In this document: piece by piece, positions 4,106 through 23,227 of the stretch
Position numbering within the stretch: the stretch's first letter is position 1
How the letters are laid out: every line of letters begins with the position of its first letter
IMG/VR virus record: IMGVR_UViG_3300042884_000458
Location: 1 to 28,756 of that record
From: a virus
Strand: one strand, 5' to 3'
DNA: 28,756 bases
Made by a program: the position numbers and the translations under genes
Notes under the pieces: model-generated
What the model was told of the DNA's origin: nothing
The model's database searches: none
What the model saw: only the letters and a program-made list of their open reading frames with translations

Positions 4106-6297
4106 CCTTTTGATGTTACTATTAATCTATTTGCCGCAGTTAAGGCTGCTGCTCCTGTTGCTGAAGTTATATTAATTGTTTTTGATACAACATTTCCTTG
4201 AGCTGCCATATCATTAAATAATTGTACTATTTGTGCTGTACTCATATTAGTATAAGATACATTTATTTGAGGAGATGTTCCTGTCCATTGTCCTGCTGAA
4301 GCATTTAAAAGTCTTACTGATTGTACATCTGTTATAACATTTGTTGAACTAACGTTAGAAGATATGTCAAGTTTAGATAATGGTCCTGAAAATGAAATTG
4401 CAGATCCACCTGTAAATCTATTATAGTTGTTTGTACTAGCATTTATTAAAGGTGTTGCAGTTAAAGATCCTATTTTTTCAAAGTTTGTAAGTGTTATTAA
4501 ATCAGAACAGCCATTAAACATTATATCTATAGCTGTTACTGCTGATAATTGGGCAGCTCCAGGTAAAACACAAGTTTTAAGGTTCACGCATGAGCTAAAA
4601 CAAACCCTAAATGTTGTAACAACCCCTACAGTATTTGGTAAAGTAATACTTTCAATTGCTCTACATCCCGAAAAAGTAAAACTAAAATTAGTACATGCAG
4701 ACATTGAAGTAGGTAAAGCAACAGATGTAAGTGATAAACAGCCACTAAAACAACCTGACATTGAAGTAACAGCATTTAAAGTTGAAGGTAATGTTAGAGT
4801 TAATAGTGATCTACAATTTTGAAATGTTGTTGCAAAATCTTGCAATGCCGTCATTGACGTAGGCATTGTAATGCTAGTTAATAGGGTACAACCATTAAAT
4901 GCTGAGTTAAAATTTGTTAATGAATTTTGTACACCCGGAGTCCATGTAAATGTTTTTAAACTCAAACAATTATTGCACATGCCATCCAGTCTTGAAAAAG
5001 AGTAACCAGAAGGAATTGTAATTTGTTCTAGTTTATAGCAGGTAGCAAATGCTGAAACCAATTGAGTATTTGCTGCTGCTGTTGTAGGAAGGGTAATTTT
5101 AAGTAATGAAGCACAACCAGAAAAAATACTATTAAAGCTAGAACATGCTGGAGTATTTGTAGGTAATATACAAGAGCCTAATGCAACACATTGACTAAAA
5201 GTATTAGTAAAATTACTAACATTTATATTTGATGGGAAAACAATGCTTTTTAATTGAGAACAAGCACCAAACATATTATTAAGGTCATATATAGATCCTG
5301 CAGTACCAGTAGCAGGAAAATATACATTTTGTAAATTGATACAATTAGCAAAACAAGATTGCATAGTAATTGCACCAACCACAGTTGGCATACTTGTAAA
5401 TTTTACCCATTCTAGTTGTCTACATTCATTGAATGTAATACTTAAATTATTACAAGCATTAATTGAAGGAAAAGTAATAGTTCTTAAATTATAGCAAGAT
5501 GTAAAAGTGTTAATAAAAGTAGTACATGAATTTAAAGTAGTGGGAAAAGTAACAGACCTTAAATTAAAACAATTTTGAAATGTATAAGCAAAACTAGTAA
5601 CACTTGTAGCATTTGAAGGAAATATGACTTCTAATAAAGAATAACAATCAGTAAATGTTGATTGATAGTTAGTAGCTGCAGAATTAGAAGTTGGCATAAC
5701 AACTTTTTTTAATGCTGTACATAAATAAAACAGATTTGCTTGATAAGACCAAGTCACTGTTGCTGGAAGTTTTACAAATTCTAAATTTGCATATATTCCT
5801 AATCCAATGGTACTTTGTCCTGCTGAGTAAAAATTAACACGAGTTACATTTTGTGTACTATTTCCATAATATGCTTCTAATACAGCACAGTTTTGAGGAC
5901 TAGAAATTGCAAAGGGAATAACTTGTTTAGGCATTATATTACAATTATCTAAAACTGATGTTCCAGTTCCTGTAAAATAAACTCTAATCTTCCATGTTGT
6001 GTAACCTAAAGAACAAGGAGTTCCTGTTCCCGGAGTGTATGTTTTATTAGTAGTTGTTCCAAATATACTTGTAACTGTATTAGTAGTTCCGTCTCCCCAA
6101 TCTATAGTTATATTTTGGGAACCTGATGTTCTTGTAAAGTTTGTTAGAATTGCACAAGTTGCATCTCCAAGATCACAGAATAAGAATTGTACTTCTGTAG
6201 CTACATCTGTAATTACAGGCCAATCTGAAGGTCTAGAATATACTGCTGGACCTGTTGTTCTACTAAAAAAATTTTGTAATGGTAAGTTAAATGCCAT
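4087..6297 (-). CDS. BspA-type leucine-rich-repeat fibre protein, 736 aa
   Basis: The start chosen is ATG at 6297 (MAFNLPLQNFF). The reading frame extends 38 codons further upstream, but that part overlaps the 99-aa gene and has atypical composition. Residues about 55-110 contain IDWGDGTTN, a PKD-like signature. Residues about 150-600 are some 17-18 repeats of 24-25 residues of the form L..V.FP.........F..TF..C.N, the BspA/LRR_5 type. The C-terminal 80 residues (from about YTNMSTAQIVQLFNDM) form a capping module ending in KGWTITG. BspA-type repeats in bacteria bind host matrix proteins. On a phage they most likely bind the host surface or a mucosal ligand. Many Cys residues recur at the same repeat position. 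Confidence 0.88.
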   Translation of the reverse strand: MAFNLPLQNFFSRTTGPAVYSRPSDWPVITDVATEVQFLFCDLGDATCAILTNFTRTSGSQNITIDWGDGTTNTVTSIFGTTTNKTYTPGTGTPCSLGYTTWKIRVYFTGTGTSVLDNCNIMPKQVIPFAISSPQNCAVLEAYYGNSTQNVTRVNFYSAGQSTIGLGIYANLEFVKLPATVTWSYQANLFYLCTALKKVVMPTSNSAATNYQSTFTDCYSLLEVIFPSNATSVTSFAYTFQNCFNLRSVTFPTTLNSCTTFINTFTSCYNLRTITFPSINACNNLSITFNECRQLEWVKFTSMPTVVGAITMQSCFANCINLQNVYFPATGTAGSIYDLNNMFGACSQLKSIVFPSNINVSNFTNTFSQCVALGSCILPTNTPACSSFNSIFSGCASLLKITLPTTAAANTQLVSAFATCYKLEQITIPSGYSFSRLDGMCNNCLSLKTFTWTPGVQNSLTNFNSAFNGCTLLTSITMPTSMTALQDFATTFQNCRSLLTLTLPSTLNAVTSMSGCFSGCLSLTSVALPTSMSACTNFSFTFSGCRAIESITLPNTVGVVTTFRVCFSSCVNLKTCVLPGAAQLSAVTAIDIMFNGCSDLITLTNFEKIGSLTATPLINASTNNYNRFTGGSAISFSGPLSKLDISSNVSSTNVITDVQSVRLLNASAGQWTGTSPQINVSYTNMSTAQIVQLFNDMAAQGNVVSKTINITSATGAAALTAANRLIVTSKGWTITG

Positions 6298-6626: not shown

Positions 6627-9600
6627 TTAATACTCAATCCAAGTATTATCTGGGTCAAATCTCATAATCCATATTGTTGTTGTGTCTATGCTTTGATGAT
6701 AAGCATAACCCAAGATACGAACATATTTTGCACCTGGAACTCCAGTGGATAATTCACCACTACTTGTACTCTGTTTAATGTAGATAGGAAGACCGTGGTC
6801 TAATCCAGTTACAAAAGGAGCTGAATCATTATTTGTATCTTCAACCTGCACATGCCCTTCTAAAAGAATTTTACAAGTACCACCACTAATAGTTTCAAGA
6901 TATATCCCTAACATTTTTGATGATGAAGCAGTTGTTTGGTCAACCATCTCCCAAGTACCATCAGTTCTTAAAGAAACCAAACTATATAAATCTACTGTTG
7001 CTCCAGTGTAATAGGTTCCTTCAATTACATCACCTTCATAGTAAAATGTAGGTGAGAGGGTATTATTATTTGAAAAACTTCTTTGTGCTATATCAATATC
7101 TTTATACCATAAAGAATATAAATTACCATAGGCTAAAAAATCAGATAACCAACTAAATCCTATTATACCAGTTGGTGTAGTCAATTGACCATATTGAGTA
7201 TCAATGTTTGGGTAAGTAGAACTTGTAGTTAATAGTCTATCATTTATTGTTAGTAAACTTCCATCAAAAGTTAAATTAGATTCAGCAACTATTGCACCAG
7301 CACCATTTGAAGTTAAAACTTCATTATTACTTCCAGGTACAGTTGGTGTAGATCCTAATAGACCTTGGATACCTTGGATACCTTGTGTCCCTTGAATACC
7401 TGTTACTCCTTGAAATCCTAAAATACCTTGCACACCTTGTATTCCAAGAAGACCTTGAATACCCTGTAGACCTGTAGTTCCTTGAGAACCCGGATCACCT
7501 TTTATTCCTTGTATTCCTTGTGCACCACCATTACCAGTAAAACCTTGACTACCAGTAAAACCCTGTGTACCTGTAGCACCTTGTGTTCCAATTCCACCTG
7601 TAGTACCTTGATTTCCAGTAGATCCAATTGTACCCTGACTACCAGTAATACCTTGGGAACCTGTAGTACCAACTGTTCCTTGACTACCAGTTGCTCCTAC
7701 GGTACCTTGAGTTCCAATAGCTCCTTGAGAACCTGTACTACCAATGGCTCCCTGAGAACCTATAGCTCCTGTAGTACCTTGCAATCCAGTAAGTCCCTGT
7801 AATCCAGTACTACCTTGTGCACCTGTTCCACCTGTTGATCCTGTAGCACCTTGAGAACCAATAAAACCTTGTATCCCTTGAGATCCTGTAGCACCTGTTG
7901 TGCCTATAGTACCTTGACTTCCCTGAGCACCGGTTGCACCAGTTGTTCCTGTTGTACCCTGTAAACCAGTGGTACCTGTAGCACCCTGACTACCAGTAGT
8001 ACCTGTAGTTCCGGTAGTACCCTGAGTACCAACTGCACCCTGGCTACCTGTAGATCCAACAGAACCTTGAGATCCCGTAGCTCCTGTAGTTCCCTGAGTA
8101 CCAGTTCCTCCAGTGTTACCAATAAAACCTTGTATTCCTTGTGTCCCTATAACTCCTTGCTGTCCTTGAATACCTTGTATGCCTTGCAATCCTATTAAAC
8201 CTTGAGAACCAGTAGTTCCTACTGTTCCTTGTGCTCCCACAGCTCCTTGTGAACCTATAGAACCAGTAGAACCTTGACTACCTGTTGTACCAATTGTACC
8301 TTGAGATCCAACAGATCCCTGACTTCCAGTTGAACCTGTACTTCCCTGAGCACCAGTTGTACCAATACTACCTTGTGTTCCAGTTGTTCCTTGTGATCCC
8401 GTAGTCCCAGTTGTACCAGTAGTTCCTTGTTGTCCAATAGCACCTTGAGTTCCTGTTGTTCCAGTAGTTCCTTGGAAACCTAATATACCTTGTATTCCTT
8501 GACTTCCTATTGCACCTTGACTACCATTTAATCCAGATGTACCTTGAGAACCTGTGGATCCCTGAGATCCTGTAAGACCTGTACTACCTTGTGCTCCAGT
8601 GTTTCCAATAGTACCTTGTGATCCAACTGCACCTTGAGCACCCGTTGAACCAGTACTACCTTGAGATCCTGTTGAACCAACAGCACCCTGAGCACCTGTA
8701 TTTCCTAAGATACCTTGTGTTCCCTGAATCCCTTGAATCCCTTGAATCCCTAATAGACCTTGTATTCCCTGTATCCCTTGGAGACCAATAAGACCTTGAA
8801 GACCAGTTGTACCAGTAGTTCCCTGAGATCCTACTGTACCCTGTGCACCAGTAGATCCAGTTGTTCCCTGACTTCCTGTTGCACCAACTTGTCCTTGAGT
8901 TCCAACAGAACCTTGGGCTCCTGTACTACCTGTAGCACCTTGAGCTCCAGTCACACCAATTAATCCTTGAAGTCCCGTAAGACCTTGTAATCCAGTAACA
9001 CCTTGTTGACCAATTGCTCCTTGAGTACCAACAAGACCTTGTAAACCAGTAGTTCCCTGTGAACCTGTTGCTCCTTGTGCACCAGTTAATCCTAAAGTAC
9101 CTTGTGCCCCTTGACTTCCTGTAGCACCTGTATTACCAGTAATTCCCTGAATTCCTTGTGTGCCTTGAGTTCCATTTATACCAGCAGTACCTTGAGCACC
9201 AGTATTACCAATTGTTCCCTGGCTACCTACAGCCCCTTGACTACCATTAGATCCAGTGCTTCCTTGAGAACCAGTATTTCCAATAGTTCCTTGAGAACCT
9301 ATTATGCCCTGTGTACCCTGAATACCCTGTATACCTTGGGTACCTTGTGTTCCAGTAGTTCCCTGACTACCAGTTATTCCTTGAAGACCTTGAGTTCCAA
9401 AAGTTCCCTGGCTTCCTGTAGTCCCTTGTGTACCAAATGTACCTTGACTTCCAGTTAAACCTTGTAAGCCAACACTTCCTTGCAATCCTGTAATTCCTTG
9501 TAAACCTTGAGAGCCAGTAGCTCCAGTTGTTCCTAAAATACCTTGTATACCTTGAATTCCAATAGAACCCTGAGAACCAGTTACTCCTATAGAACCTTGT

Positions 9601-12600
9601 GTACCTACACTTCCTTGTGATCCAGTACTTCCTGTAGTTCCTTGAGAACCTGTTGATCCTGTACTGCCTTGGGAGCCAGTTACACCTATAAGACCTTGTA
9701 AACCAAGAGTTCCTTGAACTCCTTGTAATCCAGTTATACCCTGTATCCCCTGAGTTCCTTGAGCACCAGTAGCACCAGTAGTTCCAGTAGATCCTTGGGA
9801 TCCTGTTGTTCCTGTTGTTCCCTGCGTACCAGTCACACCTTGAGATCCAGTGGATCCTGTACTTCCTTGACTTCCTGTTGAACCTATAGAACCTTGAGTG
9901 CCTATTACACCTTGAACTCCTTGAAAACCAAGTATACCTTGTAGACCCTGTATTCCTTGTAGTCCTTGTGCACCAATAGTGCCTGTAGTTCCTTGAAATC
10001 CTAAAATACCTTGTAATCCTAATATACCTTGTATACCTTGACTTCCGGTAATACCCTGGTTTCCAGTAGATCCTGTACTACCTTGGCTACCTGTATTACC
10101 TACTGTACCTTGAAGACCTGTTGTTCCCTGAACACCCTGAATACCTAATAAACCTTGTATGCCTTGAATTCCCTGTAATCCTTGTAGACCAGTTAATCCT
10201 TGTATACCCAAAAGACCTTGTGTACCCTGTATTCCAATTAATCCTTGAATACCCTGTGAGCCAGTAGTGCCTTGGAAACCTTGAATACCAATTGCTCCTT
10301 GTGTACCTTGAGGTCCAGTTACATTACCAACATCATCCCAATTAGCACCATCCCAAACCCACAAATGTCCAGTATCTAATGTAATATAACCATCACCAAT
10401 ATTTCCTGTATATGAATTTGGCCAACCAGGTAAAGATGTTGAAGTAGAAACACTCCCTAATAAAGTAATAGAGTTTCCTGAAGTACCTTGTGTACCAAGT
10501 TGTCCTTGGATACCCTGAATACCTTGCAGCCCTGTAATTCCTTGAATACCTTGTAATCCGGTCAAACCTTGTGTTCCTACAATACCCTGTAAACCGGTAA
10601 TACCTTGTAAACCAAGAATACCTTGAGTACCTTGTCTCCCTTGGATACCCTGACTTCCAGTTTGACCTTGAGATCCGGTTGTACCTTGAGTACCATTAAT
10701 ACCTGCTGTACCTTGTGTGCCTATGGCACCTTGGGAACCAGTATTTCCAGTTGTCCCTTGAGTACCAGTGTTTCCTAATGTTCCTTGTATGCCTTGAATA
10801 CCTTGAAGACCAACAGCTCCTTGAACACCTAATAAACCTTGTATGCCTTGAATTCCTTGTGTCCCTTGAGCTCCAGTATTTCCTATTATTCCTTGAGTTC
10901 CTTGTGATCCGGTATTTCCAGTAGTACCTTGACTACCTACAGTACCTTGTGCTCCAGTATTACCAGTAGTTCCCTGAGAACCAGTATTTCCAAGTAAACC
11001 TTGAATACCCTGAATTCCTTGTAAACCTTGTAAACCTGTAAGCCCTTGAGTTCCTGTTAAACCTTGAGTTCCAGTAACACCTTGTAATCCAATAGTCCCT
11101 TGTATACCTTGAAGTCCTTGACTTCCTACAGTACCAGTTGTACCTTGAAAGCCAACAGCTCCTTGACTACCAGTTGATCCAGTAGTACCTTGGCTTCCAG
11201 TAGCACCTACAGTTCCTTGAGAACCAACTGTACCTTGTGCTCCTGTATCACCTATTATACCTTGAAAACCTTGAATACCAGTTTCTCCTTGAATACCAGT
11301 TTCTCCTTGACTACCACCACCTCCAATTATACCTTGAGAACCTTGAATACCTTGTAAGCCAATTGTTCCTTGTCTGCCTTGAATTCCTTGACTACCAGTT
11401 ATACCCTGAACTCCTAAAGTTCCCTGTGTACCTTGACTACCAACAGCTCCCTGTGAACCATTTATTCCACTTGTTCCTTGTAAACCCAAAGTTCCTTGAG
11501 AACCTTGAGCTCCAGTTAAACCTATAGTACCTTGAAGACCTGTGGTTCCTTGCGCACCTGTGCTACCAGTAGTACCCTGACTTCCTGTATTACCAAAAAT
11601 ACCCTGGATTCCTTGTGTTCCTTGTGAACCAGTTAATCCTTGAGTTCCAAATGTACCTTGGGTTCCTATCTGACCTTGACTTCCTGTAATTCCTTGAGTA
11701 CCAAAAGTACCTTGAGAACCTGTATTTCCTAATATACCCTGAGTCCCCTGGGTTCCTTGTAGACCTAAAAGACCTTGTGTTCCTTGAGACCCTTGCAATC
11801 CAACACTACCCTGAGAACCCGTAGATCCAGTTGTGCCTTGAGATCCAACAGTACCCTGGGATCCTGTAGAACCTGTGGTACCTTGACTACCGGTTGTTCC
11901 TGTAGTTCCTTGTGTTCCAACTGTTCCTTGTGAACCAGTGCTTCCAGTAGATCCTTGAGAACCTATATTTCCAGTGGTTCCTTGTATACCCTGGGTTCCC
12001 TGTGAACCAACAACACCAAATAATCCTTGTATACCTTGAATTCCTTGGCTGCCAGTAGTACCTTGATTTCCTAATACTCCTTGAGTTCCTTGACTACCTT
12101 GTAGTCCAGTTAATCCTATACTACCCTGTATTCCTACAGCTCCTTGACTACCAGTACTGCCGGTAGTACCTTGATTACCTGTTGTACCTAAAATACCTTG
12201 TGTCCCTTGTGTACCCTGAGCACCTACTTGTCCTTGTACTCCAGTAGTTCCTTGAGTTCCTATTAATCCTTGTAAGCCTATGGTACCTTGAGTACCTATA
12301 GAACCTTGTGAACCAGTTGTACCAAAAATACCTTGAGTTCCTTGGATTCCTTGCCCTCCTTGAAGTCCTAATGTACCTTGGGTTCCTTGGGAACCTGTTA
12401 AACCTTGAGATCCTGTAGCTCCAATTGATCCTTGTGTACCGGTAATTCCCTGTGAACCAGTACTTCCAGTGGTACCTTGGCTTCCAGTATTTCCTGTAAA
12501 ACCTTGGATACCAATAGATCCTTGAGATCCAGTGCTTCCTGTTGTTCCTTGAGAGCCAGTATTACCTAAAGTACCTTGAAGTCCTAATATACCTTGTGTT

Positions 12601-13991
12601 CCTTGTACTCCTACGGAACCTTGTGTTCCTATTTGTCCTTGTGCTCCATTAGTTCCTTGATTACCAAGTATACCTTGTGTACCTTGAGCACCTTGGCTAC
12701 CAGTTAATCCAGTTGAACCTTGGGTTCCTATTGCACCTTGTGAGCCTGTGGATCCTGTTGATCCCTGACTTCCTGTATTTCCTATTGCTCCTTGTGAGCC
12801 TACAATACCCTGGATTCCTTGAATTCCTTGTGTTCCAGTAAGTCCTTGTGTTCCTAAAGTTCCTTGAGTACCATTATTTCCTTGTATTCCTTGTAAACCA
12901 GTTGTGCCTTGCACACCTTGAATACCTTGATTTCCTAATAAACCTAATGTCCCTTGTATACCTTGTATGCCTTGAAGACCAACAATACCTTGACTTCCTG
13001 TATTACCAGCAGTCCCTTGAGGCCCTGTAGTTCCTTGAACTCCTTGGGAACCCAATGCTCCTTGAGATCCAGTTGTACCAGTCTGTCCTTGTGTTCCAGT
13101 TATACCTTGTGAACCAGTAGAACCTGTTGTTCCTTGGGATCCTGTATTTCCATTTAATCCTTGGGCACCAACAGTTCCTTGAGATCCAGCATTTCCTAAT
13201 GCACCTTGAGAACCTTGAGATCCTGTATTTCCAATAATACCTTGAGAACCAATACTACCTTGAATTCCAGTAGTACCTTGATTACCATTACTTCCGGCTG
13301 AACCTTGAGAACCTGCATTACCTGTATTTCCTTGAATACCTGTACTGCCTTGTACACCATTTATACCAATTTGTCCTTGTGCACCTTGTATTCCAATATC
13401 TCCTTTGATACCTTGAATCCCTTGAAGTCCAACTCCACCAGTAATTCCTTGTAAACCTTGATAACCTTGAATACCTTGATATCCTTGAATACCTAATCCA
13501 ACAAATCCTTGTACTCCTTGTAATCCTTGAATACCTGGAGGACCTTGATAGCCTTGAATACCTGTTCCAACAAAACCTTGAATTCCTTGTGGACCATTAA
13601 AACCTTGTATTCCCTGAGTTCCTTGAATTCCTTTAATTCCTTGAATACCTACATTACCTTGTGTACCAGTAGTACCTTGTACACCTTGTCCTGCAAATGC
13701 ACCTGAAATACCTTGAACTCCTTGTATTCCTTGGATACCTTGGATACCAACATTTCCTTCATTACAAAGCCAATTAACTATTTCATTTAAACCTTGTGCT
13801 ACTGAAGTATACTGAGTTATTACTGTAGTTCCTTGGCAAATAATATTTTCTCCAAAATATATAACACAATCGGCATCATATACTTCTGAACATTTTTCAG
13901 GATCAGGGCATGTAAATTGAGGTTCACATGAAATAGGTGTAGTTAACCCATCATTACAAAAAAAATTTTGATTGGGTTGATTATTGTCCAT
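6627..13991 (-). CDS. Giant collagen-like tail or head fibre, 2454 aa
   Basis: Residues 1-78 are a globular N-terminal domain with seven or more Cys, probably the particle-attachment end. Gly-X-Y triplets run from about residue 79 to 1170 and 1224 to 2212, roughly 690 triplets, dominated by units such as [15 protein letters not shown] and GTQG. Gln or Thr takes the Y position, while Pro and charged residues are nearly absent. A 50-residue globular insert (including [20 protein letters not shown]) interrupts the array. The C-terminal 240 residues form a beta-rich trimerisation or receptor domain ([12 protein letters not shown], then [15 protein letters not shown]). Phage collagen-like fibres form homotrimers. 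If wholly triple-helical this one would extend several hundred nanometres. The repeats probably make the gene length-variable. Confidence 0.93.
7354..13757 (-). repeat. Gly-X-Y coding tandem repeat array
   Basis: The 6.4-kb array repeats with a 9-nt period at DNA level; on the plus strand CCTTG recurs almost every 9 to 18 nt. It is broken once, at about 10319-10480, by the globular insert. Higher-order blocks (for example GSTGSQG, and GLQGIQG runs) recur many times, as expected from repeated unequal recombination. It belongs to the collagen-like gene and is not a separate mobile or CRISPR element. Confidence 0.9.
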
Positions 13992-19114: not shown

Positions 19115-19164
19115 CGCTTTACCATTCTTTTCTCACTATAAGTAAACAATTTAATTTATATACT

Positions 19165-19425
19165 ATGGCTACATTTAGCAAAACACAGAGCATTGGGGTA
19201 TTTGCCTCAATCAACAGTATCAACAAAATAGACCTTGTCATTAACCCTCATACAGGGAAGACATTTGGTGTATCTGATACAGGCACTACCTTCAGGGTTG
19301 GTGCTGACATTACTGCATTAAGTGGTGATTTGAGTGTATCTTTGTTCTCACCTGCAGATGGTGAAGAATCTTGGATGATTCACAAGACGGGACAGTCCAA
19401 TGTCCAAAGCACTCTAGTATTCTAG
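19165..19425 (+). CDS. Early protein, first of a paralogous pair, 86 aa
   Basis: The start is placed at 19165 (MATFSKTQSIGVFASINSIN) because the paralogue at 20129 starts at the same place (MSTFSKTQNIGVFA). The open frame reaches further upstream, but only through hairpin copy B. The protein is about 70% identical by eye to the paralogue over its whole length, with shared blocks KIDLV.NPHTGK.FGVSD, TFRV and SWMIH.TG.SNVQSTL. It contains no Cys or membrane segment and reads as a small beta protein. Its own transcription unit (hairpin B to the terminator at 19410) suggests strong early expression. Function is unknown; small paralogous early phage proteins often bind host machinery. Confidence 0.85.
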   Translation: MATFSKTQSIGVFASINSINKIDLVINPHTGKTFGVSDTGTTFRVGADITALSGDLSVSLFSPADGEESWMIHKTGQSNVQSTLVF

Positions 19426-19683: not shown

Positions 19684-19794
19684 CTCTTATGGGATTGGTT
19701 TCCTGTAAGAGTACAACAACTGTGGGGGCGAATCCCTTTAGGGTACCAGTTATTACAGCAATGTAATTAGGGTCAAGTGAAGCCACAGGGTGAA

Positions 19795-19824
19795 GGGAAC
19801 TACCAAAGTGTTCCCATTTTTTTT
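19795..19824 (+). terminator. Terminator-like hairpin inside the structured RNA
   Basis: A perfect 6-bp stem (GGGAAC / GTTCCC, loop of 9) is followed by A and eight T. Taken alone it looks like an intrinsic terminator. Because a longer-range helix encloses it, it may instead be a conditional stop or a structural arm. Confidence 0.5.
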
Positions 19825-19915
19825 AAATAACAATGGCTCTGTGCACAAGAGTCCTTTAGGAGGAGATCCTAAATGTAGAATAAAGATTAGGGGGTTCTAC
19901 CATTGTTATTTTTTT
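19825..19915 (+). ncRNA. Four-way-junction domain with T-tail
   Basis: AAATAACAATGG (19825-19836) pairs with 19900-19911. Inside are three arms: CTCT/AGAG with a 7-nt loop, TTTAGGA/TCCTAAA with loop GGAGA, and GTAGAA/TTCTAC with a 14-nt loop. A T-run ends the element. The layout is cloverleaf-like, but it lacks the tRNA T-arm and D-arm consensus, so it is not called a tRNA. Confidence 0.55.
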
Positions 19916-20128: not shown

Positions 20129-20404
20129 ATGTCAACTTTTAGTAAAACTCAAAACATCGGTGTATTTGCACAGATGAATGGCATCAACAAGATTGACCTT
20201 GTTGAGAATCCTCACACCGGGAAAATCTTTGGTGTATCTGATTCTGGATTAACATTCAGAGTTAGTGAGAAAGTAGATGCTTTGACAAGAGATTTGTCAA
20301 TCAGCTACTTTACACCTGCTGATGGTGATCCTAGTTGGATGATTCATCCGACAGGGGAGTCTAATGTACAAAGTACATTGGCATTTGCACCTGCTTCTAA
20401 GTAA
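20129..20404 (+). CDS. Early protein, second of a paralogous pair, 91 aa
   Basis: This is the paralogue of the 86-aa protein at 19165-19425. MSTFSKTQNIGVFAQMNGIN opens it and the conserved blocks KIDLVENPHTGKIFGVSD, LTFRV and SWMIHPTGESNVQSTLAF follow. It differs mainly in the middle (residues about 45-58, SEKVDALTRD, more charged) and has a five-residue C-terminal extension (APASK). Its leader is A-rich without a Shine-Dalgarno, as expected for a Bacteroidota host. It has its own upstream hairpin (copy D) and downstream terminator (20451). Two copies flanking a structured RNA suggest duplication of the whole unit, followed by divergence. Function is unknown. Confidence 0.85.
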   Translation: MSTFSKTQNIGVFAQMNGINKIDLVENPHTGKIFGVSDSGLTFRVSEKVDALTRDLSISYFTPADGDPSWMIHPTGESNVQSTLAFAPASK

Positions 20405-20450
20405 TTAGAAGTGGGTAGCAATACCTAAATATCTTATTGAATTGTTTTGA

Positions 20451-20479
20451 AACCCTATGAAAGTAGGGTTATTTTTTTA
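20451..20479 (+). terminator. Intrinsic terminator after the 91-aa gene
   Basis: A perfect 7-bp stem (AACCCTA / TAGGGTT) with loop TGAAAG is followed by A and seven T. It ends the transcription unit of the second paralogue 46 nt past its stop. Confidence 0.88.
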
Positions 20480-20492
20480 TAGTAAATGTTTT

Positions 20493-20503
20493 GCACTTTG
20501 TGC
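20493..20503 (+). promoter_or_regulatory. Triloop hairpin, copy E (loop TTT)
   Basis: GCAC-TTT-GTGC, followed by CACTTTAATTTCTTTTTCAACTAAC, which matches copies B and D closely. The stem is as in copy D, but the loop is TTT and lacks the central G. It may be weaker or decayed. The next sizeable gene is 382 nt away. Confidence 0.5.
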
Positions 20504-20885
20504 CACTTTAATTTCTTTTTCAACTAACATTAGTGTTTAATGTATTAAATGCTACAAAGATAAAAGGAAAAAACATTATAGTGTGGATACTTATGTATGT
20601 ATTAGTTAGGTATTTAACCTTATACCACATTCTTCCATTCCTCTATATGCTCCTATTCCTCTATTATTAATTAATAAATATAATTAATATAGCTAAACTC
20701 TACAAACAAGCAATTGTTTCCTACATACAAATCTTGTATTATCTCTCTCTCTACTTATAGATAGTTCTTCTACAACAATTAGAGAAAGAGATATTCCGGG
20801 ATTCCAAAAAAACACCATTCAGGCATTAAATAAACACAATCCTGATTCCCAATAAAACAAGTTTAAAAACCCTAAAGAAAACATT
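20504..20885 (+). promoter_or_regulatory. Long structured leader, no gene
   Basis: No convincing gene is present. Helices include AAACAA/TTGTTT with a GCAA tetraloop (20704-20719) and a 12-nt stem with one mismatch between 20741-20752 (CT-repeat) and 20781-20792. An A/T palindrome TATTAATTAATA lies near 20677. A 25-codon hydrophobic frame at 20593 is noted but not called. It probably forms the leader of the 72-aa gene, transcribed from hairpin E. Confidence 0.45.
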
Positions 20886-21104
20886 ATGAAAACACTAATC
20901 TTCACTTGGTACATTCTTACAAATCAAATAGTTTTACAGAAAACAGTTGATGGTAGGAAAACTTATAGAATGGAATTTAATCAACCTATACAAATTACAG
21001 AAGGTGATACCACATTTTATGGAACAACAATAGATTATGCCTATAAAGGTGAAATCTATAATTTTATTGAAACAAAGAAATTTGTTTATAATGAAGACTT
21101 TTAA
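20886..21104 (+). CDS. Small protein of unknown function, 72 aa
   Basis: The 72-aa product (MKTLIFTWYILTNQIVLQKT onwards) reads as a small all-beta protein, with YRMEFNQPIQITEGDTTFYG in the middle and an aromatic, acidic end (KKFVYNEDF). The first 12 residues are hydrophobic, but no cleavage site follows, so it is probably cytoplasmic. The leader is A-rich (CCCTAAAGAAAACATT). A 7-bp hairpin (GAAGACT at 21093 with AGTCTTC at 21108) spans its stop codon, repeating the pattern of the genes to the left. It stands alone between two long gene-free, structured regions. No family was recognised. Confidence 0.65.
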   Translation: MKTLIFTWYILTNQIVLQKTVDGRKTYRMEFNQPIQITEGDTTFYGTTIDYAYKGEIYNFIETKKFVYNEDF

Positions 21105-22338
21105 TCTAGTCTTCTAAACGGTATCAGTTTATTGTTATTTGCAAGTAACAATTGATTGAGAAAGCCATCCCTATTGACTATGTAGGGATTTGCAGGTAAG
21201 AGTCCTGATTTAAGTACACAATGTTGTTACCCTCAGAGTTTAGATACTCATGGTGTGTGCGTTAAACCTATTATAACGGTTACTAAAACAACAGGTCAGC
21301 TCTCGTGACCAAAGGATAAACCAGTGATGGTATAAAGTGGTATGTTGGTAACATATTGCGCAGGAGTAATCCTGTCTACAGAAGAGTATTGTAACTACCT
21401 ACATTTTGGAATGCTAGTGGCCTAACGGTTGATGCATAGAGATGTAGACTTTCTAACAGGTAGGAAGTTGAGACAGAAATGTCAATAGAAAGTGCAATAG
21501 GTAACAATAGTACATCTTGCCAAGATGGAAGTTGTTATTAGTGAGATGTCTCATATGCTACTAGAAATAGTGTGTAGTACATCAAACAGTAAGTAAGCTT
21601 GGCAGCTTAAAGCAATGTGAAGTTATAACTAAGGTACTCAAAAGGTATTAAGTTATATAAAGTTAAAACTACTTCACATGAATTCCTGAACCGCTAACTA
21701 AAATCTATATGATCTAAAAGCAAAAAATGTTTTAACACTTATCAGTGAAAATGCTCTTATCCTACTGCAATATGTAGGTACAAAAGACCCGCAAGGTTTA
21801 TGTAAAGGGACTGATTAATATCTAGCTAACAGGCTGCAACCTGTGTATCTCGCAAGGAAGTTGGTATGAAAAGAAACTTATGGCACTGGTATGTAAAAGT
21901 ATGATGATACTATAAATCATTGAGCATGTTGTTTACTTATAGAAATATAAGTGTGTATATATAGGGGAAACTCTTAATGATAACAACATGAAAGGTCAAG
22001 TACTCAGCCTTTCAGATTTTAATGCACCAATTCTACTTCACAAGGGTAGACAGTTGTAATGTATGTACGCAACACTACTAGATTTTATCACTAGAAAGAT
22101 GTCACGTAGGGTTTTGAGTAGAGAAGACTGATAATCATCTCTTTAACCTGAATGAAACTTATATTACAACTGAGTGCAGAGTGAAATACTAATCAGAATC
22201 TTTGAACTAATGATAAGAACAGATTAACAATGCAAATTAATTATAAGTAGGGTAGTATCCTATAGGTCAGGCAGCAATCCTGATTACAACTGATAAATTA
22301 AACAATAATATTTATCTTTTTTTTATTAAATCTATAAT
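21105..22338 (+). ncRNA. Giant structured non-coding RNA candidate, about 1.2 kb
   Basis: No coding frame fits here, and G/C content is above that of nearby genes. Perfect helices occur throughout: 21131-21137/21146-21152, 21167-21173/21183-21189, 21294-21298/21306-21310, 21502-21507/21532-21537, 21594-21599/21604-21609, 21615-21623/21671-21679 (9 bp), 21761-21765/21774-21778, 21829-21833/21840-21844 and 21925-21933/21982-21990 (9 bp). GNRA-capped stems are CAGGA-GTAA-TCCTG (21361), GACA-GAAA-TGTC (21472), ACTA-GAAA-TAGT (21560) and ACTTATA-GAAA-TATAAGT (21935). The last sits inside the 9-bp 21925/21990 helix, so helices nest. Size and ornateness recall the GOLLD and ROOL RNAs of phages, but no match to either can be claimed. 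Strand is inferred from the flanking genes. Confidence 0.68.
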
Positions 22339-22620
22339 ATGAAATTTGAAAATTTAGAATTTGAATTTGATGAGATGGGTGAACATGCACATCACATTTT
22401 TGACAATTATTATGGTGTGTCTGTAATACGTGGTCCTTATACCCATGGTGGTAGACAAGGATTATATGAACTTGCAGTTTTACATATGCCACCTGGTGCA
22501 GAATATTCAGAACTTGTGTATGATACACCTGTTACTAATGATGTAGAAGGACATTTAACACCTAAAGATGTAACTAGATTAATGAAAAAAGTCAGTAAGT
22601 TACCTTTAAAACAAAAATAA
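22339..22620 (+). CDS. Conserved phage protein of unknown function, 93 aa
   Basis: The protein starts MKFENLEFEFDEMGEHAHHI and contains GVSVIRGPYTHGG, YELAVLHMPPG and a C-terminal DVEGHLTPKDVTRLMKKVSK helix. I recall similar small proteins with the same VEG-LTP-DV-LM pattern in unrelated phages, always unnamed. Several His residues cluster near residues 15-19, but no metal motif is certain. It is the first protein gene after the 1.2-kb structured region and starts behind a T-rich then A-rich leader. No function is assigned. Confidence 0.8.
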   Translation: MKFENLEFEFDEMGEHAHHIFDNYYGVSVIRGPYTHGGRQGLYELAVLHMPPGAEYSELVYDTPVTNDVEGHLTPKDVTRLMKKVSKLPLKQK

Positions 22621-22652
22621 AAAAGATGAAATATTCTTTTTTTTTATCCTTA

Positions 22653-22673
22653 GCAGTTATATGGTGAAACTGC
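22653..22673 (+). other. Small intergenic hairpin
   Basis: GCAGTT and AACTGC form a 6-bp stem around a 9-nt loop, in the 86-nt gap between the 93-aa and 64-aa genes. There is no T-run on its 3' side. It may be a leader structure, or chance. Confidence 0.3.
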
Positions 22674-22706
22674 CCAAAATTACAATCAAACCAAAAAAAA
22701 CAAACA

Positions 22707-22901
22707 ATGAAAGAAAGTATTTATTACAGTACAATAATTAATATTAGAGATTATTTGACTGATTTGCAAAAAGAAGAAATTAGAAAAGATTTACAAGAAA
22801 AGTTAGATAACTTAAAATCCTATGCTATGCAACCTACAAGTGACATAGAAGAAGTAAGAGAAAAACATAATATTTACCAAAATTTAATTTCTACAATATG
22901 A
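22707..22901 (+). CDS. Small helical protein, 64 aa
   Basis: The 64-aa product (MKESIYYSTIINIRDYLTDL onwards) is charged and should be mostly helical, with a Lys/Glu-rich central stretch (KEEIRKDLQEKLDNLKSYAM) that could form a short coiled coil. There is no Cys, membrane segment or known motif. The leader is A-rich (CCAAAAAAAACAAACA). Its end overlaps the start of the next gene by 4 nt (ATGA), so the two are probably coupled. No family was recognised. Confidence 0.7.
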   Translation: MKESIYYSTIINIRDYLTDLQKEEIRKDLQEKLDNLKSYAMQPTSDIEEVREKHNIYQNLISTI

Positions 22902-23227
22902 ACCATCAACTTAAATTTGGGTATTCCCAACTAGGATATAATATCCTTGTAAAATTAAATTGTAAACTATTATCTGCAGATGCAGTAAGTTTAGAAAAAG
23001 AATATCCTGAAATATCTATATGTCAAACCAGAAATGGATACAGACTTGAAGGATCTTTTAATACAAGAAAAGATAATTTTTATGTGTATACAAAATTTGA
23101 AGATTTTAAATTAAGTCTTGCTTTAAGACTTAATGATTACAAAATCAACAAGTTAATTGATAAATCTCAAGCACTTTTAAATCAAGAGAATATGAAATTA
23201 TCAGTAGAAAAAATAGATTTCGTATGA
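22898..23227 (+). CDS. Protein of unknown function, 109 aa
   Basis: The protein starts MNHQLKFGYSQLGYNILVKL and is a mixed alpha/beta protein of 109 residues, with a repeated strand pattern in the middle (ISICQTRNGYRLEGSFNTRK) and a helical, Leu-rich second half (FKLSLALRLNDYKINKLIDK). It has two Cys, no zinc pattern and no membrane segment. It overlaps the preceding gene by 4 nt at its start and the 22-aa peptide by 4 nt at its end. That chain of ATGA overlaps marks one translation unit. No function is assigned. Confidence 0.75.
   Translation: MNHQLKFGYSQLGYNILVKLNCKLLSADAVSLEKEYPEISICQTRNGYRLEGSFNTRKDNFYVYTKFEDFKLSLALRLNDYKINKLIDKSQALLNQENMKLSVEKIDFV

Follow-up and report, generated by a model that had tools for sequence, protein, structure and literature searches.

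The window, the whole stretch of DNA analyzed here, is a 28.8-kb virus record (IMG/VR IMGVR_UViG_3300042884_000458, 28,756 nt). The 1234 nt from 21105 to 22338 had been described as gene-free, and this holds: no open reading frame (ORF) of at least 60 aa lies there on the plus strand, and the only one inside at all is an antisense ORF that enters at 22298. Comparison with relatives refined the limits of what occupies this region. An RNA common to distant homologues begins at about 21206, and a domain of the GOLLD type stops at about 22010. Between 22020 and 22325 lie another element and a hairpin that is AT-rich and resembles a terminator. The features are, in order:

20886–21104, plus strand: upstream ORF of 72 aa, with no family match.
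21122–21209, plus strand: variable 5′ leader with three hairpins, from an alignment of near relatives (fold z –3.1).
21206–21295, plus strand: module 1, an H-type pseudoknot (85 nt), from a 23-sequence alignment; model R1 scores 99 bits here.
21214–21219/21255–21260, plus strand: P1 of module 1.
21222–21228/21287–21293, plus strand: P2 of module 1, crossing P1.
21229–21231/21252–21254, plus strand: P3 of module 1 (3 bp), with an inner hairpin.
21265–21268/21278–21281, plus strand: P4 of module 1.
21282–21286, plus strand: junction of module 1, ACTAA.
21296–21614, plus strand: 5′ half of the GOLLD-type RNA, with 15 predicted helices in the clade consensus.
21615–22010, plus strand: GOLLD 3′ domain.
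22020–22181, plus strand: T element, made up of TAATGCACCA, a hairpin, CAGTTGTAAT, a variable insert and ATTACAACTGAGTGCAGAG, with a predicted three-way junction.
22292–22325, plus strand: weak terminator-like AT-rich hairpin of 7 bp followed by eight T, from the sequence (fold –3.2 kcal/mol, z –1.9).
22339–22620, plus strand: downstream ORF of 93 aa, PHROG 4074 (unknown function), used to find relatives.

The original prediction for this region was a giant structured phage RNA, on the scale of GOLLD and ROOL, with real nested helices. Its two perfect 9-bp stems were exactly placed (21615–21623/21671–21679 and 21925–21933/21982–21990). Such stems occur at chance frequency, with a mean of 0.92 per dinucleotide shuffle and at least two in 49 of 200 shuffles. 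Four GNRA-capped stems had also been counted (one GTAA, three GAAA). The enrichment stands and the count rises by one: there are five such stems of at least 4 bp, including a GTGA, versus 0.22 expected, and none of 500 shuffles reached five. The folding energy of the single sequence (1000 nt) was ordinary (z –1.39; 3 of 20 shuffles equally good). Evidence of this kind is suggestive, short of sufficient. It is the homologues, in which the helices covary, that make the signal decisive.

A default Rfam scan of the window returned no matches. It overlooks the RNA because the score against RF02032, the GOLLD model, is 83 bits and the gathering cut-off is 150 bits, a curators' threshold for automatic annotation and no biological feature. 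In a permissive scan of 20400–23000, positions 1–416 of the model aligned without truncation to 21615–22010 on the plus strand (E = 2.3e-21), with the helices formed. GOLLD was one of three families proposed for comparison; the other two, ROOL and OLE, gave no match in the same scan at E up to 10. Searched as a whole, the window record matched RF02032 with E = 5.8e-24, and none of 14 control genomes matched. Published work retrieved GOLLD RNAs with the Rfam profile at a limit of E 1e-5 (PMC12286853), which the window record passes.

The layout is also that of GOLLD, which has a conserved 3′ and a divergent 5′ domain and many members longer than 800 nt (PMC12286853). The RNA here extends over ∼805 nt, versus 833 nt for GOLLD env-38 (PMC12286853), and forms separate helices on either side of 21614. 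Phage setting and gene-free locus are likewise shared. Unlike ordinary GOLLD, it scores below the Rfam cut-off, carries an extra 5′ pseudoknot (module 1) and is followed by the T element. Moreover, the last hairpin of most ordinary GOLLD neighbours runs into a U-run (e.g. CTCAGCGTTTTTTT in L068), whereas that of the window RNA lacks one, and the polymerase could therefore read on into the element that follows. ROOL, a large cage-forming RNA in published structures, resembles the window RNA in scale and phage setting but, as noted, did not match it.

With the downstream PHROG 4074 gene as query, we found 59 related phage loci. GOLLD above the cut-off (277–332 bits) was present in 19 of the 49 phage records searched, a number that includes the window record itself, so that textbook GOLLD occurs in phages sharing the window's flanking gene. 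The divergent form was found in three of the 49, the window among them. It lies upstream of the PHROG 4074 gene in the window and L002 and downstream of it in L004 and L005, and therefore behaves as an independent unit. Further divergent homologues were collected by scanning viral contigs with two conserved motifs. Removal of near-duplicates left 20 homologues, 48–87% identical to the window and with it making 21 distinct sequences. Most of the 20 also match RF02032, and scores in the motif-collected set were 72–123 bits, two marginal second matches excepted, versus the cut-off of 150. Matches L142–L150, obtained with a loose pattern, were discarded because they lack module 1. In L088/G003, the fast genome search missed a GOLLD RNA that scored 91.6 bits on direct scan. 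Negatives of the fast search are therefore no proof, and L092, L091, L115 and L151 were scanned directly, with no GOLLD match.

Comparison with isolate phages and plasmids by blastn gave chance matches or none, and no cultured phage with the window RNA was found there. A scan of genome contigs returned a single contig with the same RNA, L140 (RFNS01000086.1), one of the 20 homologues, which belongs to an alphaproteobacterial metagenome-assembled genome from Lake Lanier. L140 probably stems from a phage and was misbinned with bacterial DNA, and as such it establishes no host.

The low Rfam score could mean that the RNA merely resembles GOLLD and is unrelated to it. Sequence-only profiles of the divergent clade point the same way, as they found ordinary GOLLD only marginally. 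For the 5′ half the matches were collinear but weak, with E no better than 0.14, and no firm alignment with ordinary GOLLD was obtained; for the 3′ domain the best E was 0.42. Because these profiles are marginal, the link between the clade and GOLLD rests on the sequence-plus-structure model. Yet the full-length match (E 2e-21) is repeated independently across the clade, at up to 123 bits, and ordinary GOLLD is present in phages with the same neighbouring gene. We consider an unrelated RNA very improbable.

Covariation was assessed in both halves. For the 3′ domain (alignment A3), RNAalifold predicted 78 pairs; 59 of these show double compensatory changes, versus 12–26 in slid controls, and 96.4% of cells pair. 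For the 5′ half (alignment A4), double changes were seen in 44 of 69 pairs, versus 15–19 in slid controls. We also tested the proposed pairs against a tree-based null of the R-scape kind, with substitutions simulated on a tree built by FastTree. Thirty of 171 pairs were significant at E ≤ 0.05, whereas sliding the structures by –3 to +3 gave 0, 0, 0, 1, 0 and 0. This slid control incompletely removes the bias of deriving the tested structures from the same alignments. In this test, 14 pairs of the 3′ domain and 11 of the 5′ half were significant. A given structure was tested because the all-pairs version has low power; the latter yielded five pairs at E ≤ 0.05, all canonical. The original prediction had staked the RNA on covariation above background, and that covariation is present. 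Decayed coding or spacer DNA with chance helices, for which the ordinary folding energy and the chance frequency of 9-bp stems might speak, is refuted by the covariation under both tree-based and slid controls, and we give it almost no credence.

These data show that a plus-strand RNA of ∼805 nt (21206–22010) is under selection for base pairing, and that its 3′ domain is homologous to that of GOLLD. We conclude, with a probability of about 0.9, that the gene-free region encodes a divergent GOLLD RNA in a tailed phage, whose host is probably a member of the Bacteroidota. Originally no basis was seen to equate the RNA with GOLLD, and a new class was thought possible. The full-length match to all 416 model positions, together with textbook GOLLD in phages sharing the flanking gene, overturns both views. 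The class is already known; what is new is a divergent clade below the Rfam threshold and the modules attached to it.

The first of these modules is compact. In distant homologues, similarity often begins abruptly at module 1. Across 23 sequences, 98.3% of cells are paired and 15 of 26 pairs show double changes, versus a mean of 6.3 in shuffles and 2–4 in slid structures; loop and junction bases are near-invariant. Module 1 was absent from the ordinary GOLLD loci tested. It occurs without detectable GOLLD in L092 and L093, where module 1 and the T element enclose a different stretch, of ∼340 nt. In L115, L091 and L151, solo copies precede small ORFs by 30–100 nt, and L112 and L152 likewise have copies before small ORFs. 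Weak matches in G017, G021 and G023 (28 bits) were discarded, the motif being absent in the two inspected (G017 and G021). The viral contig L115 also encodes, at 4209–4598, a permuted tmRNA (RF04321, 52 bits, above the cut-off), followed by a tRNA.

We give about even odds to a passive or protein-binding role for module 1, as a 5′ element common to GOLLD and small phage mRNAs, for example an RNase-resistant cap, or an antitermination or translation element. The position of the solo copies before small ORFs and the near-invariance of loop and junction bases are consistent with such a role, which leaves a conserved C-N-R-A junction unexplained.

That junction is one of several features that point to a self-cleaving ribozyme with the strand order of hepatitis delta virus (HDV), cutting 5′ of P1 (before 21214). 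Cleavage there would separate the upstream transcript from GOLLD or, where the copy is solo, from a small phage mRNA, and would add to the GOLLD explanation. The features taken as defining HDV-like ribozymes are partly general knowledge and partly from the paper on theta ribozymes. In module 1 the strands run P1, P2, P3, P1′, P4, P2′, the order of a nested double pseudoknot, with covariation in P1, P2, P3 and P4. P3 has 3 bp, and C-N-R-A, the J4/2 consensus that holds the catalytic C in HDV-like ribozymes, precedes P2′ in 25 of 26 distinct copies, the C of the window being the second junction base and not the first. Conservation starts at the expected cut site, and phages are known to carry HDV-like theta ribozymes (PMC10879173). 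Other observations argue against cleavage. No Rfam ribozyme model matches module 1 at E up to 10. P1 opens with a G-C pair in 22 of 23 sequences, where G-U is usual. P1.1, which was scored separately, lacks good pairs, and a two-pair P1.1 was not found by inspection. The hairpin inserted in loop 3 would occupy the active site. Nearly all copies keep two A directly before P1, and cleavage at that point would have no need of them. Unlike phage theta ribozymes, module 1 has no adjoining tRNAs. Judged from sequence, a ribozyme is possible but doubtful, and we hold it as a testable minority hypothesis. It also seems rather unlikely that module 1 is a new self-cleaving variant, with the strands in HDV order, by which a giant and probably cage-forming RNA is released from phage transcripts, within a locus whose modules are a leader, the ribozyme, GOLLD or other cargo, and the T element.

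The T element follows the same plan in L002, L004, L005, L091, L096, L098, L109, L116 and L092. Its hairpin stem differs from copy to copy on both arms (CTAC/GTAG, CTCAC/GTGAG, CCTGA/TCAGG), and in the window its two 10-mers pair perfectly. The ends are conserved, the insert varies from phage to phage in both length and sequence, and the element is present in relatives that have GOLLD as well as in some that lack it. Besides the window copy, sites include 9208 in L091 and 7028 in L092. The T element may represent a separate RNA family. At the other end of the locus, the leader hairpins directly before module 1 exist in at least two unrelated versions among relatives, and the window's version is common to only some of them, the rest having other hairpins in its place. 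Promoters of the sigma-70 type occurred about as often in shuffled sequence, and a search of the plus strand at 20301–22400 for TAnnTTTG promoters gave none. A second gene-free structured stretch, without an Rfam match, lies at 19684–19830 and ends in GGGAAC...GTTCCC and eight T. It shares 87% identity with sequence that immediately precedes the RNA in L002. It is flanked by a tandem duplicate (19164–19425 and 20129–20404) encoding two closely similar small proteins (FSKTQ..GVFA...).

The helicase of the window has distant relatives (best ∼31% identity) in phages of Bacteroides, Flavobacterium and Cellulophaga, some of them crAss-like, and a Bacteroidota host is likely. G055, a relative of 123 kb in which both the flanking gene and the modules recur, has tailed-phage genes for portal, terminase, major head protein and DNA polymerase. 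The window also encodes a collagen-like protein of 2454 aa with GxQG-type repeats (6627–13991), probably a tail or fibre protein. GOLLD RNAs are located in phages or prophages, often near tRNA genes. The window, a virus record, has no tRNA, and in several near relatives tRNA-Arg lies 2–6 kb away. In the 274-kb record L074, the ordinary GOLLD of a very large phage sits inside a cluster of eight tRNA genes.

GOLLD env-38, the member studied in most detail, has been solved as a hollow cage of 14 RNA copies, each with two separately folding domains, and GOLLD RNAs are reported to increase during lysis (PMC12286853). By analogy with env-38, the window RNA would fold as two separate domains and assemble in multiple copies into a hollow cage. 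From the published expression of other GOLLD RNAs, it would be expected to accumulate late in infection. The anatomy of the locus suggests that the clade-specific pseudoknot would cap or process the 5′ end, and that the T element and the AT-rich hairpin would close the transcript. Module 1 may process or protect the 5′ end of the GOLLD RNA. Because of the Rfam cut-off, a GOLLD clade of environmental phages stays out of sight, and this clade provides diverse sequences with which to test the conservation of intermolecular contacts in the RNA cage. It also exposes a compact, conserved pseudoknot, and whether or not this cleaves itself would tell how the 5′ end of the RNA arises.
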